Positions 14,342-44,084 of a stretch of 64,000 nucleotides of DNA are shown piece after piece (position 1 is the first letter of the stretch; every line of letters begins with the position of its first letter). A program made the position numbers and the translations under genes. This stretch comes from Calditrichales bacterium. Lineage in GTDB: Bacteria > Calditrichota > Calditrichia > Calditrichales > J004. The stretch is from contig WGCN01000216.1 of NCBI GenBank assembly GCA_015493745.1, positions 1 through 64,000 of the forward strand, in the 5' to 3' direction. A model generated the notes under the pieces. The model saw only the letters and a program-made list of their open reading frames with translations, was not told where the DNA came from and searched no databases.

Positions 14342-15115
14342 CTATTTCAGCAACAAGATGCGCCGCATTCGTTGAGTATGCTCCCCTTCCAGGCGCACAA
14401 AATAGACGCCGCTGCCCATCGCCTTTCCGCGGTCGTCCTTTCCGTACCAGCTCAGGCTGTAATTTCCGGGCGCAAAACGGGCGGCAACCAGAGTACGGAT
14501 CAGGCGGCCGTTTATATCGTAGATGCGCAGGTGGATGTTCTGCTCGCGGTCATTGCTAAAGGGTATCTCGGTTTTGGGGTTAAAGGGATTGGGGTAATTG
14601 GCCTTCAGTTCAAAAGAGCTTACCGCCGCTCCGTTTTCTTCCAGGCCGGTTGTGGAGAGCAAACCGTCGATGGTGCTGTTGATGGCCGAAATTTTATTGG
14701 TGCGGTCATAAAACTGAATCACACCCTGCTGATCGATGACGGTGCTTTTCTGATACTGCACGCCATAGTCGGAGGCCGTGGAGCCGCCATTGAGCAGACA
14801 ATCGTACTTGATGCCGGTTTGATTGATAAAATTCTGCACGCTGTTGGCCGAACCGTCCCAGACGTCGATACCCAGGGCCACAAAGTTTTGATCCTTGTAG
14901 CGGTCGGCAATTTTTGTTTGCGTATCGTTGCCTTCCTGCAGGCAGGTGGGGCAGGTGTTGCCAAACCAGTTGATATAGATGACCTTGCCCGAATGATCGG
15001 ACAGGGATACGGATTTACCGGCCACCGTATACAGCGTAAACGGCTTGGCCGTGCTGCCCACCACCTGGGCGGCGGAAAAGGTAAAAAGAGAAAGAAGTAA
15101 AATAAGGGTTCTCAT
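14342..15115 (-). CDS. Thioredoxin-fold protein with a T9SS type A sorting domain
   Basis: 257 residues. A signal peptide (LILLLSLFTFSAAQ) precedes a TlpA/AhpC-like thioredoxin domain (about 20-150) with the active site NTCPTC (CPTC). Residues about 172-257 are a T9SS C-terminal sorting domain: YPNPFNPKTEIPF, then LRIYDINGRLIRTL, then GSGVYFVRLE and a basic end. Proteins with this tail cross the outer membrane through the type IX system and are released or anchored at the surface. So this thioredoxin should act outside the cell. It is the last gene of a four-gene operon, 9 bases after the barrel gene. Confidence 0.9.
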   Translation of the reverse strand: MRTLILLLSLFTFSAAQVVGSTAKPFTLYTVAGKSVSLSDHSGKVIYINWFGNTCPTCLQEGNDTQTKIADRYKDQNFVALGIDVWDGSANSVQNFINQTGIKYDCLLNGGSTASDYGVQYQKSTVIDQQGVIQFYDRTNKISAINSTIDGLLSTTGLEENGAAVSSFELKANYPNPFNPKTEIPFSNDREQNIHLRIYDINGRLIRTLVAARFAPGNYSLSWYGKDDRGKAMGSGVYFVRLEGEHTQRMRRILLLK

Positions 15116-15124
15116 GGTTTCCTC

Positions 15125-16582
15125 CTAAATACGGGTTGTGATCTGAAGTTCCAGACCGTTAAAGGGCAAAACACGGTAACAGATACCGCCGGTGCAGGCG
15201 TTGCCGCCCCGGCGCCTTCCGTAAAAAAGATTGAAAGAGGTGTGACTGTCCATCTGATAGTTCACAATCAGCGCCGGCCAGTAGATGATGGTATCGTCAT
15301 TGTATATTTCGATGGGGTCGTTGGAGCGTTCCATCAAAAAGGCCACGGAAAAATCGGGCGCGCGGCTTAGGGAAAGGGAAAAGAGCTGATTGGCCACCAC
15401 ATCCACCGGTGTAAAACGGCGCTTTAACTGTTGCAGTTGTATCTCCAGGGCCAGTCCCCATAGGGCCGTTATACTCCCCTCCACCTGAAAACCGGCCGTA
15501 TAGCGTTCCGTTTCTCCCAGCAGCTCATCCTGACTGTAATCGACAAAGGCCTTGCCCTGCCAGGTTTCATAAAAAAAGTATTGCAGATCGGCATAGTACT
15601 CATAAAAAACCGCTTCAAAGCCGGCGATCTGGTTGACGGCCCGGCTGGCATTCAGCGTTACCGTGTTGAAGCCCCCCACATTAAATAAAGCCTCGAGCTG
15701 AAAGCCGGTTTCACTGTTGGGTTCCGGGGAGTGGGTGGAGCGGTTCAGCAGGGTAAAGCTGTGCTCCTTAACCGTGGGCGGCGGCTCGTTAAAGCCCAGG
15801 GTAAACTTTTTATAATCCTTATATTCCAGACTCAGGGCCACGGCGTCCAGATAAAAATTAAAGGCGCCGTACAGGGCATAAGGCGTGCCTTCCCGCAGAG
15901 GATCAAAACCCTGTTGCTGGTTGTACTCCAGATAATAATCAAACATCTCCGCCCTGCCTTCGGAAAGCGCCCCCCAATAGCTTGTGGACTGCTTGTTGGC
16001 ATCGCTGCGTAAATAGACCAGACCGGGCCGCCACAGGGGGGAAACGTTATAAAGAGCCTGCACTCCCTGTACCAGGCGCGAACGTCGCTGCTCCCGGCCA
16101 TAGGCCGGAGGGATGATCAGGTCCAGCGGCCGGCCGTAAACCGCGCTGACATCCCAGCCGTTTTTTTCATAGCGCAGGTTCAGCCCCTCGATATCGCGGT
16201 AAAAGCCGTAACGCTGACGGGTGCCGGTATCCTCGTAGACCGTGCCGGGGATTTCGTACATGCGCAACAGGGAGCCGCGGCCGAACATTTCATAAAAATT
16301 TCCGATCTGCACGGTAAAACCGTTGTAGCTGTAACGCAGCAGCTTTTGAGATATTTTGTTATACTTGCGCCGGTCGTCAACGGCATAGCTTTCGGCGCGC
16401 AGCACCAGTTGGATATCCTGCCAGTTGGCCTGCAGGTTTAGCTGGTTATAAAGGTTGGATCGGTCGGACGGCTGTTGTTCGGGTAAATTGCCGATTTGAA
16501 AAACAGCCTGATTGGAGCCGGTCACCTGCGCGCGGATAAAAAGCGGCAGCAGGACAAACAGAATGAGGAGAGCTTTATTCAC
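15125..16582 (-). CDS. Outer membrane beta-barrel protein of the thioredoxin operon (DUF6029-like)
   Basis: About 485 residues from a GTG start at 16582. This start has GGAGG at the right distance and overlaps the upstream stop by 8 bases, and it gives a clean signal peptide (ALLILFVLLPLFIRAQ). The longer upstream frame would put 29 extra residues before the signal. The mature protein is rich in alternating aromatic strands (QLVLRAESYAV, ADLQYFFYETW and similar), typical of a large barrel; the resemblance to DUF6029 is by eye. Near the C-terminus it has a CTGGIC pair of cysteines. Its place between thioredoxin-like genes suggests a redox partner or an export channel. Confidence 0.7.
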   Translation of the reverse strand: MNKALLILFVLLPLFIRAQVTGSNQAVFQIGNLPEQQPSDRSNLYNQLNLQANWQDIQLVLRAESYAVDDRRKYNKISQKLLRYSYNGFTVQIGNFYEMFGRGSLLRMYEIPGTVYEDTGTRQRYGFYRDIEGLNLRYEKNGWDVSAVYGRPLDLIIPPAYGREQRRSRLVQGVQALYNVSPLWRPGLVYLRSDANKQSTSYWGALSEGRAEMFDYYLEYNQQQGFDPLREGTPYALYGAFNFYLDAVALSLEYKDYKKFTLGFNEPPPTVKEHSFTLLNRSTHSPEPNSETGFQLEALFNVGGFNTVTLNASRAVNQIAGFEAVFYEYYADLQYFFYETWQGKAFVDYSQDELLGETERYTAGFQVEGSITALWGLALEIQLQQLKRRFTPVDVVANQLFSLSLSRAPDFSVAFLMERSNDPIEIYNDDTIIYWPALIVNYQMDSHTSFNLFYGRRRGGNACTGGICYRVLPFNGLELQITTRI

Positions 16583-17072
16583 CGCCGTCCTCCAGAAAAG
16601 CGTCCAGTTTTTTTCGCAGTTGTTCGCCGTCGCCGGGGCGGAAACCGATATGCGTATAGAGGATTTCATTCTTCTCGTTGATGATAAACAGGGTGGGATA
16701 GGCGTTGACGTTCAGCCGGGCGGTAACGATGCCGTTGGGGTCCAGCAGAATGGTGTAATTTATGCGGTACATGCGGGCGAAAGGTTTTACCTTGCTGCTG
16801 TTGCGGGGACTGTCCGTGTTGATGCTCACCACCTTTACCCCCCTGCTTTCATAATCGCGGGAAATGGCCGCCAGCTTGGGAATGGCTTTCAGGCAGGGTT
16901 TGCACCAGGTGGCCCAAAAATCGACCAGGGTCAGCTTTTCTCCCCGTACCATGGAAAATTTTTTGGTCTGGCCGTTGATATCCTTCAGCTCAAAATCGGC
17001 GATCTCTCCCGCCCGGGCGGAGAAGCCCAAAAGCATTACCAAAAAAGTCAATCTTAAAAAAAGGATTTTCAT
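16575..17072 (-). CDS. TlpA-like periplasmic thioredoxin
   Basis: 165 residues. A signal peptide (LFLRLTFLVMLLGFSARA) leads to a full TlpA/ResA thioredoxin fold with the active site WATWCKPC (CKPC), the AIPKL helix and the cis-proline region NAYPTLFII. There is no lipobox, so it should be soluble in the periplasm. The gene is second in the operon, 4 bases after the lipoprotein thioredoxin, and its stop overlaps the GTG of the barrel gene. Family members reduce or exchange disulfides of client proteins. Confidence 0.92.
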   Translation of the reverse strand: MKILFLRLTFLVMLLGFSARAGEIADFELKDINGQTKKFSMVRGEKLTLVDFWATWCKPCLKAIPKLAAISRDYESRGVKVVSINTDSPRNSSKVKPFARMYRINYTILLDPNGIVTARLNVNAYPTLFIINEKNEILYTHIGFRPGDGEQLRKKLDAFLEDGGE

Positions 17073-17076
17073 GGGT

Positions 17077-17580
17077 CTATTCCTTTAACAGTTCATCTAT
17101 TTTTTGTTTGATGGCGGCCACGTCGGCGCCGGCTTTTTCATAAACTTTCCGTCCCTTTTGATCAATAAGAACGGAATAGTCGTTGGGAGCGCCATACAAT
17201 CCTCCCACCCCGCTGCCGGTCAGACCCAGGGGAAAAGTGGCGCCGGTTTGTATTTTAAAGTTGGATAACTGACCGATGGTGCCGTCCCATACATCAATGC
17301 CGATGACCACCACGTCATCGTCACTGTACCCTTTTTGTATCTGCTTTTCCACATTGGGGGAACTGGCGATGCAGGGGGGGCAACTATATCCAATAAAAAA
17401 GAGATAAACCACCTTTCCTGCCTGCCCGGAAAGCTTAAAGGTGCCGTGATCGAGTGTTTCGATGGTAAAATCCGGGGCGGCGGCGGCTTTAATTTCACCA
17501 CGGGTCGCCGTATTGGAAGCCGGATTACTGCATGCCTGGAAGGAAAAAAAGGCCAATATGAGAAAAATTAATGTTTTCAT
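17077..17580 (-). CDS. Thioredoxin-fold lipoprotein
   Basis: About 167 residues from ATG at 17580, which has AGGGG at a workable distance; the ATG at 17589 directly abuts that site. The signal peptide ends in a lipobox, FQAC. The thioredoxin domain has the active site GYSCPPC (CPPC) and ends with IDQKGRKVYEKAGAD. It is the first gene of the four-gene operon. As a lipoprotein it would sit at a membrane face and could pass electrons to the soluble TlpA-like protein encoded next. The domain is AhpC/TSA-Redoxin-like rather than classical thioredoxin. Confidence 0.88.
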   Translation of the reverse strand: MKTLIFLILAFFSFQACSNPASNTATRGEIKAAAAPDFTIETLDHGTFKLSGQAGKVVYLFFIGYSCPPCIASSPNVEKQIQKGYSDDDVVVIGIDVWDGTIGQLSNFKIQTGATFPLGLTGSGVGGLYGAPNDYSVLIDQKGRKVYEKAGADVAAIKQKIDELLKE

Positions 17581-17858
17581 GCGGATCATCCCCTGTTTTG
17601 GTTTAAAACAGACTAAAGCTCAACATTCACAAAACATTCACGTTTTATCGAAAAAAGGCCGGGAAAAAGATTCAAGTCCGCCCTCTTTGCTACGATTTCA
17701 CTAATCCACACGGTGGTATCCGTGCGATAAAACCGTCGCGGAATAATTATCACAACCGGTTTGCAACTTTTTTGTTATTTTTCACCCTCACGGCAAAAGG
17801 GCAGACAAACCGCCGTGTTTATCAATGACAAACGCATTAAAATTGTATGGGAGGTCTT

Positions 17859-43502: not shown

Positions 43503-44084
43503 GTGGCTTTTACCTTACAGCCGGGATCGACAGCGCCCGCGTTTTCCTTGCCGGCAACAGATGGTAAAATTTACCGTCTGTCTGATTTTTCCGCCAACCC
43601 GCTGCTGGTTGTTTTTTTTACCTGTAATCACTGCCCCTATGTTATCAACTCCGATGAGATTACCCGCCGCACAGCAGAGGACTTTGCCCCCCGGGGGGTG
43701 CGTTTCGTCGGCATCAACTCCAACAGTAAAAACACCAATGCCGATGATGATTTTGAACATATGGTGGCGCGCATGGAAAAATACCGCTTTCCCTGGCTTT
43801 ACCTTTACGATGAATCCCAGCAGGTGGCCCGGGCCTACGGCGCCCTGAGAACGCCGCACTTTTATGTTTTTAACGAACAGCGAAAACTCATCTACACCGG
43901 CCGGGCCGTGGATAATCCCCGTGAACCCTCTAAAATAAAACAGCATGACCTGCAGCGGGCCCTGGATGAATATCTTTCGACGGGACAGGTTTCGGTTCCG
44001 GTAACCAACCCCGTCGGTTGTAATGTAAAATGGGAAGGGCAGGACAAAAACTGGATGCCCCCGGAGGCGTGCGACCTGCTGTAA
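43503..44084 (+). CDS. Thioredoxin-like redoxin (AhpC/TSA fold)
   Basis: 193 residues from GTG at 43503, chosen because GAGGAGG lies directly upstream; the longer frame puts that site inside the gene. The fold begins [19 protein letters not shown] and has the active site FTCNHCPYV (CNHC). Later landmarks are [11 protein letters not shown] and [12 protein letters not shown]. This is the cytoplasmic redoxin type common in many bacteria, often close to 190 residues, with a final Cys-containing segment (NPVGCNVKW). There is no signal peptide, so it is separate from the envelope thioredoxins at 14-17.6 kb. The substrate is unknown. Confidence 0.88.

Follow-up and report, generated by a model that had tools for sequence, protein, structure and literature searches.

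The four adjacent genes found at positions 14342-17589 on the minus strand of the window (the whole 64,000-nucleotide stretch of a Calditrichales bacterium genome that was analysed) probably, on balance, form a thiol-disulfide relay across the outer membrane, most likely a reductive one. The fuller proposal, whose chances we regard as about even, is that the operon and its relatives encode a machine dedicated to supplying thioredoxins and selenoproteins at the cell surface with thiol reducing power passed through the outer membrane; a 24-strand barrel would be its redox-active conduit, and its donor thioredoxin is sometimes fused to the barrel. Such a machine would be the first equivalent of DsbD/CcdA in the outer membrane and would provide the electrons for a class of extracellular bacterial selenoproteins.

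In operon order, the genes encode a CPPC lipoprotein, a CKPC protein of the TlpA/ResA-like type, a DUF6029 barrel, and a CPTC redoxin that ends in a sorting tail of the type IX secretion system (T9SS) (Table 1). A preliminary description, made from the letters alone, had already proposed here a four-gene operon with three thioredoxin-fold proteins, and all four genes were confirmed by Pfam/NCBIfam matches. The tight packing it reported is borne out as well: the genes are separated by a 4-nt gap, an 8-nt overlap, and a 9-nt gap.

Table 1. Features of the operon, in positions of the window.
Feature	Position	Strand	Basis
Gene 1, lipoprotein-type redoxin, CPPC	17077..17580	-	AhpC-TSA 2.8e-10; same-slot orthologues L046, L048, L049, L050
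Gene 1, lipid-anchor Cys codon	17530-17532	-	Lipobox-like FQA followed by C
Gene 1, CPPC Cys codons	17380-17382 and 17371-17373	-	
Gene 2, periplasmic TlpA/ResA-like thioredoxin, CKPC	16575..17072	-	AhpC-TSA 8e-23, ResA model 9e-23; signal peptide
Gene 2, CKPC Cys codons	16902-16904 and 16893-16895	-	
DUF6029 24-strand outer-membrane barrel	15125..16582	-	PF19494 2.2e-21; AlphaFold model; GTG start
Cys pair CTGGIC (C463, C468), hairpin between strands 23 and 24	15179..15196	-	80/80 complete homologues; extracellular by topology
Gene 4, T9SS-tailed redoxin, CPTC, predicted surface component	14342..15115	-	AhpC-TSA 7e-14, Por_Secre_tail 1.4e-8, TIGR04183 6e-10
Gene 4, CPTC Cys codons	14951-14953 and 14942-14944	-	
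Gene 4, T9SS type A sorting tail, ~residues 172-257	14345..14602	-	Por_Secre_tail / TIGR04183

The first protein matches the AhpC-TSA/Redoxin families of Pfam; its start at 17580 is preferred, with ATG 17589 as an alternative. The second combines an AhpC-TSA/Redoxin fold with a WCxxC motif and a signal peptide and has ResA-like structures as its closest relatives, which makes it a TlpA/ResA-type protein, whereas its scores against specific NCBIfam equivalogs lie under the curated cut-offs, so that no subfamily name was assigned. The lipoprotein assignment and the signal peptides rest on visual inspection of the sequences rather than on a predictor. The genome contains 18 AhpC-TSA matches in 3.7 Mb, of which three are inside the 3.2-kb operon; chance adjacency of a thioredoxin and the barrel was rejected since, with so few matches, it is expected for well below 1% of such genes. 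A further AhpC-TSA redoxin lies in the window outside the operon (43524-43895, plus strand).

The barrel protein belongs to PF19494 (DUF6029), scoring 76.6 bits against a gathering score of 27 and spanning model positions 46-537 of 538. GTG 16582 is preferred as its start over the mechanical ATG 16669 because the latter falls well within gene 2. The AlphaFold2 model, built with 37 aligned homologues (the Prevotella sequence described below was left out), has 24 strands (pLDDT 88.5, pTM 0.83). Each even-to-odd turn in it consists of 2-5 residues, and such short turns would place the N- and C-termini in the periplasm and the last hairpin, between strands 23 and 24, outside the cell. It is this hairpin that carries the C-terminal Cys pair pointed out in the preliminary description: C-x4-C is present in the last hairpin of all 80 complete barrels, and no other Cys is conserved in the family. 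Moreover, the 40 positions with at least 90% identity, the Cys hairpin included, are skewed to the outer half of the barrel (p = 0.0002 against random positions), and many of them fall in three loops, FGRG, P-x4-EH-x3-L-x-NR, and CxGGxC. A model of a natural fusion (L075) shows an N-terminal thioredoxin domain followed by the same 24 strands (pLDDT 88.1, pTM 0.72), a topology that would put the fused thioredoxin on the periplasmic side.

A sequence search of the PDB with the barrel gave no match at E up to 10. By fold, the barrel comes closest to the usher pores FimD/PapC (Z 19.5, rmsd 4.5, 360 aligned residues), to the OprD-type porins, and to AlgE, with MtrB (6r2q_B) also among the fold matches; these indicate a wide barrel and say nothing of its function. 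An outer-membrane position, on which the preliminary description had made its proposal depend, is supported by the predicted 24-strand barrel and by the matches to usher, OprD, and AlgE.

Conservation of the gene order among relatives was the other point on which the preliminary description had staked the proposal, and the order holds. Of 40 genomes from the same phylum, 24 have DUF6029, usually as a single copy. Within the window's own family, the full four-gene order is found at three loci (L046, L049, L050), and a fourth (L048) is the same up to the contig end. A second architecture has other proteins in these slots and comprises a PEGA-Omp28 lipoprotein, a T9SS-tailed Omp28 protein, a small T9SS-tailed protein, TlpA, and DUF6029. 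A scan of named genomes revealed relatives in Calditrichota, KSB1, Zixibacteria, Gemmatimonadota, Eisenbacteria, Latescibacterota, Neomarinimicrobiota, and a MAG labelled Fibrobacter; the gene set is kept in at least eight bacterial phyla. Bacteroidota are represented by a single Prevotella replicon from a plasmid collection; it is unannotated, and its consecutive open reading frames read as TlpA and DUF6029 followed by two Omp28 proteins, the first a lipoprotein, with a small protein between them. Viral contigs gave 41 pattern matches and no relative among them.

After collapsing at 95% identity, 87 distinct DUF6029 genes remained, and 81 of them are paired with a CxPC thioredoxin, which is encoded directly upstream in 56 and fused with the barrel in one polypeptide in 25. 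The remaining six lie at contig starts (L079, L083), are split-frame second halves (L059, L086), follow a masked region (L064), or have their TlpA gene elsewhere in the cluster (L076). The regularity with which the CKPC protein adjoins or is fused to DUF6029 marks it, as far as gene neighbourhood can tell, as the barrel's dedicated partner. Each of the 38 loci inspected with extended flanks encodes at least one more redoxin or Omp28-type protein on the same strand, no more than 8 kb away, and the slots around the barrel are occupied by unrelated thioredoxin-fold families. Two Zixibacteria loci (L066, L069) have the lipoprotein redoxin and no T9SS-tailed protein within the stretch covered, a point against the proposed relay. 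At L070 (923-5391), four tandem Omp28-type genes, each with UxxC, precede the DUF6029 operon; a Pfam search with one of them placed a dockerin domain at its C-terminus instead of a T9SS tail. A comparison with L048 from sister genome G017 (window 17050-17620) shows that the operon DNA is ~96-100% identical except in the lipoprotein gene, where identity falls sharply, with clean edges, to 71-79%; this looks like allelic replacement of a single gene, which would suit a component that is exposed or changes fast.

The fourth protein scores 38.9 bits against the TIGR04183 cut-off of 23 and is thus a T9SS type A cargo candidate in a genome that has both PorU (803 bits) and SprA, together with ~50 sorting-tail matches, which make its tail meaningful. 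Co-occurrence with T9SS was set aside as a test of the system: SprA is present in 40/40 genomes of the window's phylum and in 80/80 of a second phylum and does not discriminate. Conversely, the system is not required for T9SS, because DUF6029 is absent from 16 of the 40 genomes of the phylum, a set in which SprA is nearly universal; this too counts against the relay reading.

In many relatives, an in-frame TGA takes the exact place of the first active-site Cys in the surface-slot gene (GYN-U-PTC, GYN-U-PSC, GHS-U-GSC, and others). Systematic scanning identified more than 20 genes with UxxC, covering both forms of the slot, among them redoxins (L051, L053, L131, L136, L137, L138, L140, L141, L142, L143, L148, L082) and Omp28 proteins (L043, L044, L064, L068, L070, L108, L120, L121), and the same scan found no UGA at the active site of the TlpA-slot genes. 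A hairpin whose loop starts 15-28 nt downstream of the UGA is present in 20 of the 20 genes tested, with a loop beginning with G in 16 of them, and the positioned hairpin exceeds in strength that of 28 Cys homologues (p = 3e-6). The minimum free energy of the 48 nt after the UGA differs weakly from that of shuffles (mean z -0.76), and the comparison with Cys homologues is the more telling of the two. SelA is over the cut-off in 17 of 19 genomes with UxxC, the other two having no SelA match. With UGA codon, SECIS-like hairpin, and selenocysteine machinery all found, the surface-slot proteins of these relatives appear to be extracellular selenoproteins.

The window's own gene 4 is not a selenoprotein: its CPTC is encoded by Cys codons, and SelA over the cut-off is absent from its genome, as it is from the five genomes of its family (0/5), which carry Cys forms. 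Nine other Cys-bearing genomes do have SelA, hence SelA does not dictate the use of selenocysteine. The Cys-form gene of the window retains a 5-bp hairpin after the active-site codon (~14908-14953), and the Cys-form surface redoxin of L049 (genome G020; the same gene in L080) retains one of 8 bp with a GGTG loop. In a family devoid of SelA, such hairpins are possibly SECIS relics.

From this anatomy (the gene set and its order, the fusions, the invariant Cys, the barrel model and its topology, the T9SS machinery, and the UGA codons), we infer where each protein resides, that electrons pass through the barrel, in which direction, and to what client. Inner-membrane proteins of the CcdA/DsbD type would deliver reducing equivalents to the periplasmic CKPC protein, which would exchange thiols with the invariant CxGGxC hairpin of the barrel. 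This hairpin, at the outer mouth of the wide 24-strand barrel, would in turn reduce thioredoxin-fold proteins at the surface, namely, the T9SS-tailed redoxin in the window and Omp28-type or UxxC selenoproteins in relatives. Finally, the surface proteins may reduce an extracellular client such as a peroxide, methionine sulfoxide, or a disulfide. The core idea of the preliminary description, that a relay leads from the periplasm to the surface by way of the barrel, is strengthened by the fusions, the invariant Cys, the surface thioredoxin-fold proteins, and selenocysteine; nothing was found in favour of the client it suggested, the disulfides of T9SS cargo. The weakest step is geometrical: a periplasmic thioredoxin would have to act on an outer-side hairpin, either because the hairpin folds inwards or because the thioredoxin enters the lumen, and the predicted topology, with the Cys hairpin and the fused thioredoxin on opposite sides, counts against the relay.

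The main rival avoids this difficulty. According to it, the TlpA-like protein, free or fused, serves the barrel's own disulfide only, forming, isomerising, or resetting a structural bond in the last hairpin, much as LptD is served by the Dsb system; the barrel would have some other transport substrate, and the thioredoxin-fold proteins nearby would act independently at the surface. An invariant pair of closely spaced Cys is what a structural disulfide would show, and TlpA could access the hairpin before the barrel is inserted. However, a transient helper need not stay fused one-to-one to its substrate for life, as it does in the 25 fusions; moreover, neither the recurrence of redoxin and Omp28 proteins in the operon, often bearing selenocysteine, nor the clustering of the other invariant residues on the outer half is explained. 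We therefore consider this possibility serious yet unlikely.

The direction of the relay had been left by the preliminary description as either reducing or oxidising, and the same parts could indeed move oxidising equivalents or disulfides outwards to aid the folding of secreted cargo, since thioredoxin-fold proteins work both ways and the gene set alone does not fix the direction. However, an attacking selenocysteine is characteristic of reductive chemistry, so UxxC at a surface active site favours reduction there. The TlpA/ResA family is typically reductive as well. The window's genome encodes two DsbD_TM/CcdA-type proteins, while DsbB and VKOR were not detected in it, an absence that is suggestive only in a MAG 94% complete. 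Because of selenocysteine at the surface, the presence of CcdA, and the failure to find DsbB or VKOR, the predicted direction leans to the reductive one, and an oxidative relay seems improbable.

Equally doubtful is the view that DUF6029 is a porin or an exporter, for instance of polysaccharide, which the thioredoxins merely gate or maintain. The sole mention of DUF6029 found in the literature searched is as a possible polysaccharide porin by similarity, on the basis of the HHpred similarity of Wzi-barrel homologues to this family (PMC9603273), and its closest folds are those of AlgE, OprD, and the ushers, a likeness uninformative on function. Polysaccharide genes do not recur beside DUF6029 in the loci inspected, whereas thioredoxins do, and polysaccharide export was set aside on this ground. 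A chaperone-usher pore was rejected too: the fold is alike, yet no usher family was matched and the operon has no chaperone or pilin gene.

We know of no characterised system that passes reducing power, in the form of thiol electrons, through an outer membrane, nor, as far as we are aware, has any thiol electron carrier been characterised for the outer membrane of diderms. The barrel relay, if true, would show how diderm bacteria keep surface and secreted proteins reduced and make this testable by point mutants. It would also give the uncharacterised family DUF6029 a function, and it would mean that selenoproteins operate on the outside of bacterial cells with an electron route of their own. 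The novelty lies in the inferred function, the component families being already known; no account of the operon as a system was found in the literature searched, most subscription journals being outside the coverage.

Among known systems, DsbD/CcdA is an inner-membrane relay that carries thiol reducing power across the membrane to a TlpA-like acceptor. It is a helical inner-membrane protein, whereas DUF6029 is an unrelated beta-barrel, and none of the four operon proteins matches the DsbD_TM domain, so the likeness is one of functional analogy. The NCBIfam model NF045500 ("Omp28-related selenoprotein") matches the relatives' surface slot below its cut-off (three of four Omp28 examples tested, 56 bits against 200), while the window's slot holds a Cys redoxin; no selenoprotein model for a T9SS-tailed redoxin turned up, and our searches found no paper on Omp28-related selenoproteins or T9SS-tailed selenocysteine redoxins, nor one linking NF045500 to T9SS or DUF6029.

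The pneumococcal surface thioredoxins Etrx1 and Etrx2 are linked to CcdA and fed from the membrane. The CcdA/Etrx1-Etrx2/SpMsrAB2 system thus resembles the proposed relay, but Streptococcus pneumoniae is a monoderm with no outer membrane to cross, and its system has no barrel. There, the surface thioredoxin-fold lipoproteins Etrx1 and Etrx2 together with SpMsrAB2 provide resistance to extracellular oxidative stress (PMC3914529). HBP35 of Porphyromonas gingivalis, which is thioredoxin-like and reaches the cell surface through T9SS, resembles gene 4 of the window but has been studied for haem binding, and the portions of the reports available describe no barrel or TlpA partner for it (PMC2907840, PMC3120885). 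Finally, the MtrCAB conduit, whose MtrB is among the fold matches, offers an analogy at the outer membrane itself: it carries haem electrons where the proposed relay would carry thiols, and in both, a wide barrel would be flanked by redox partners at the two faces of the membrane.
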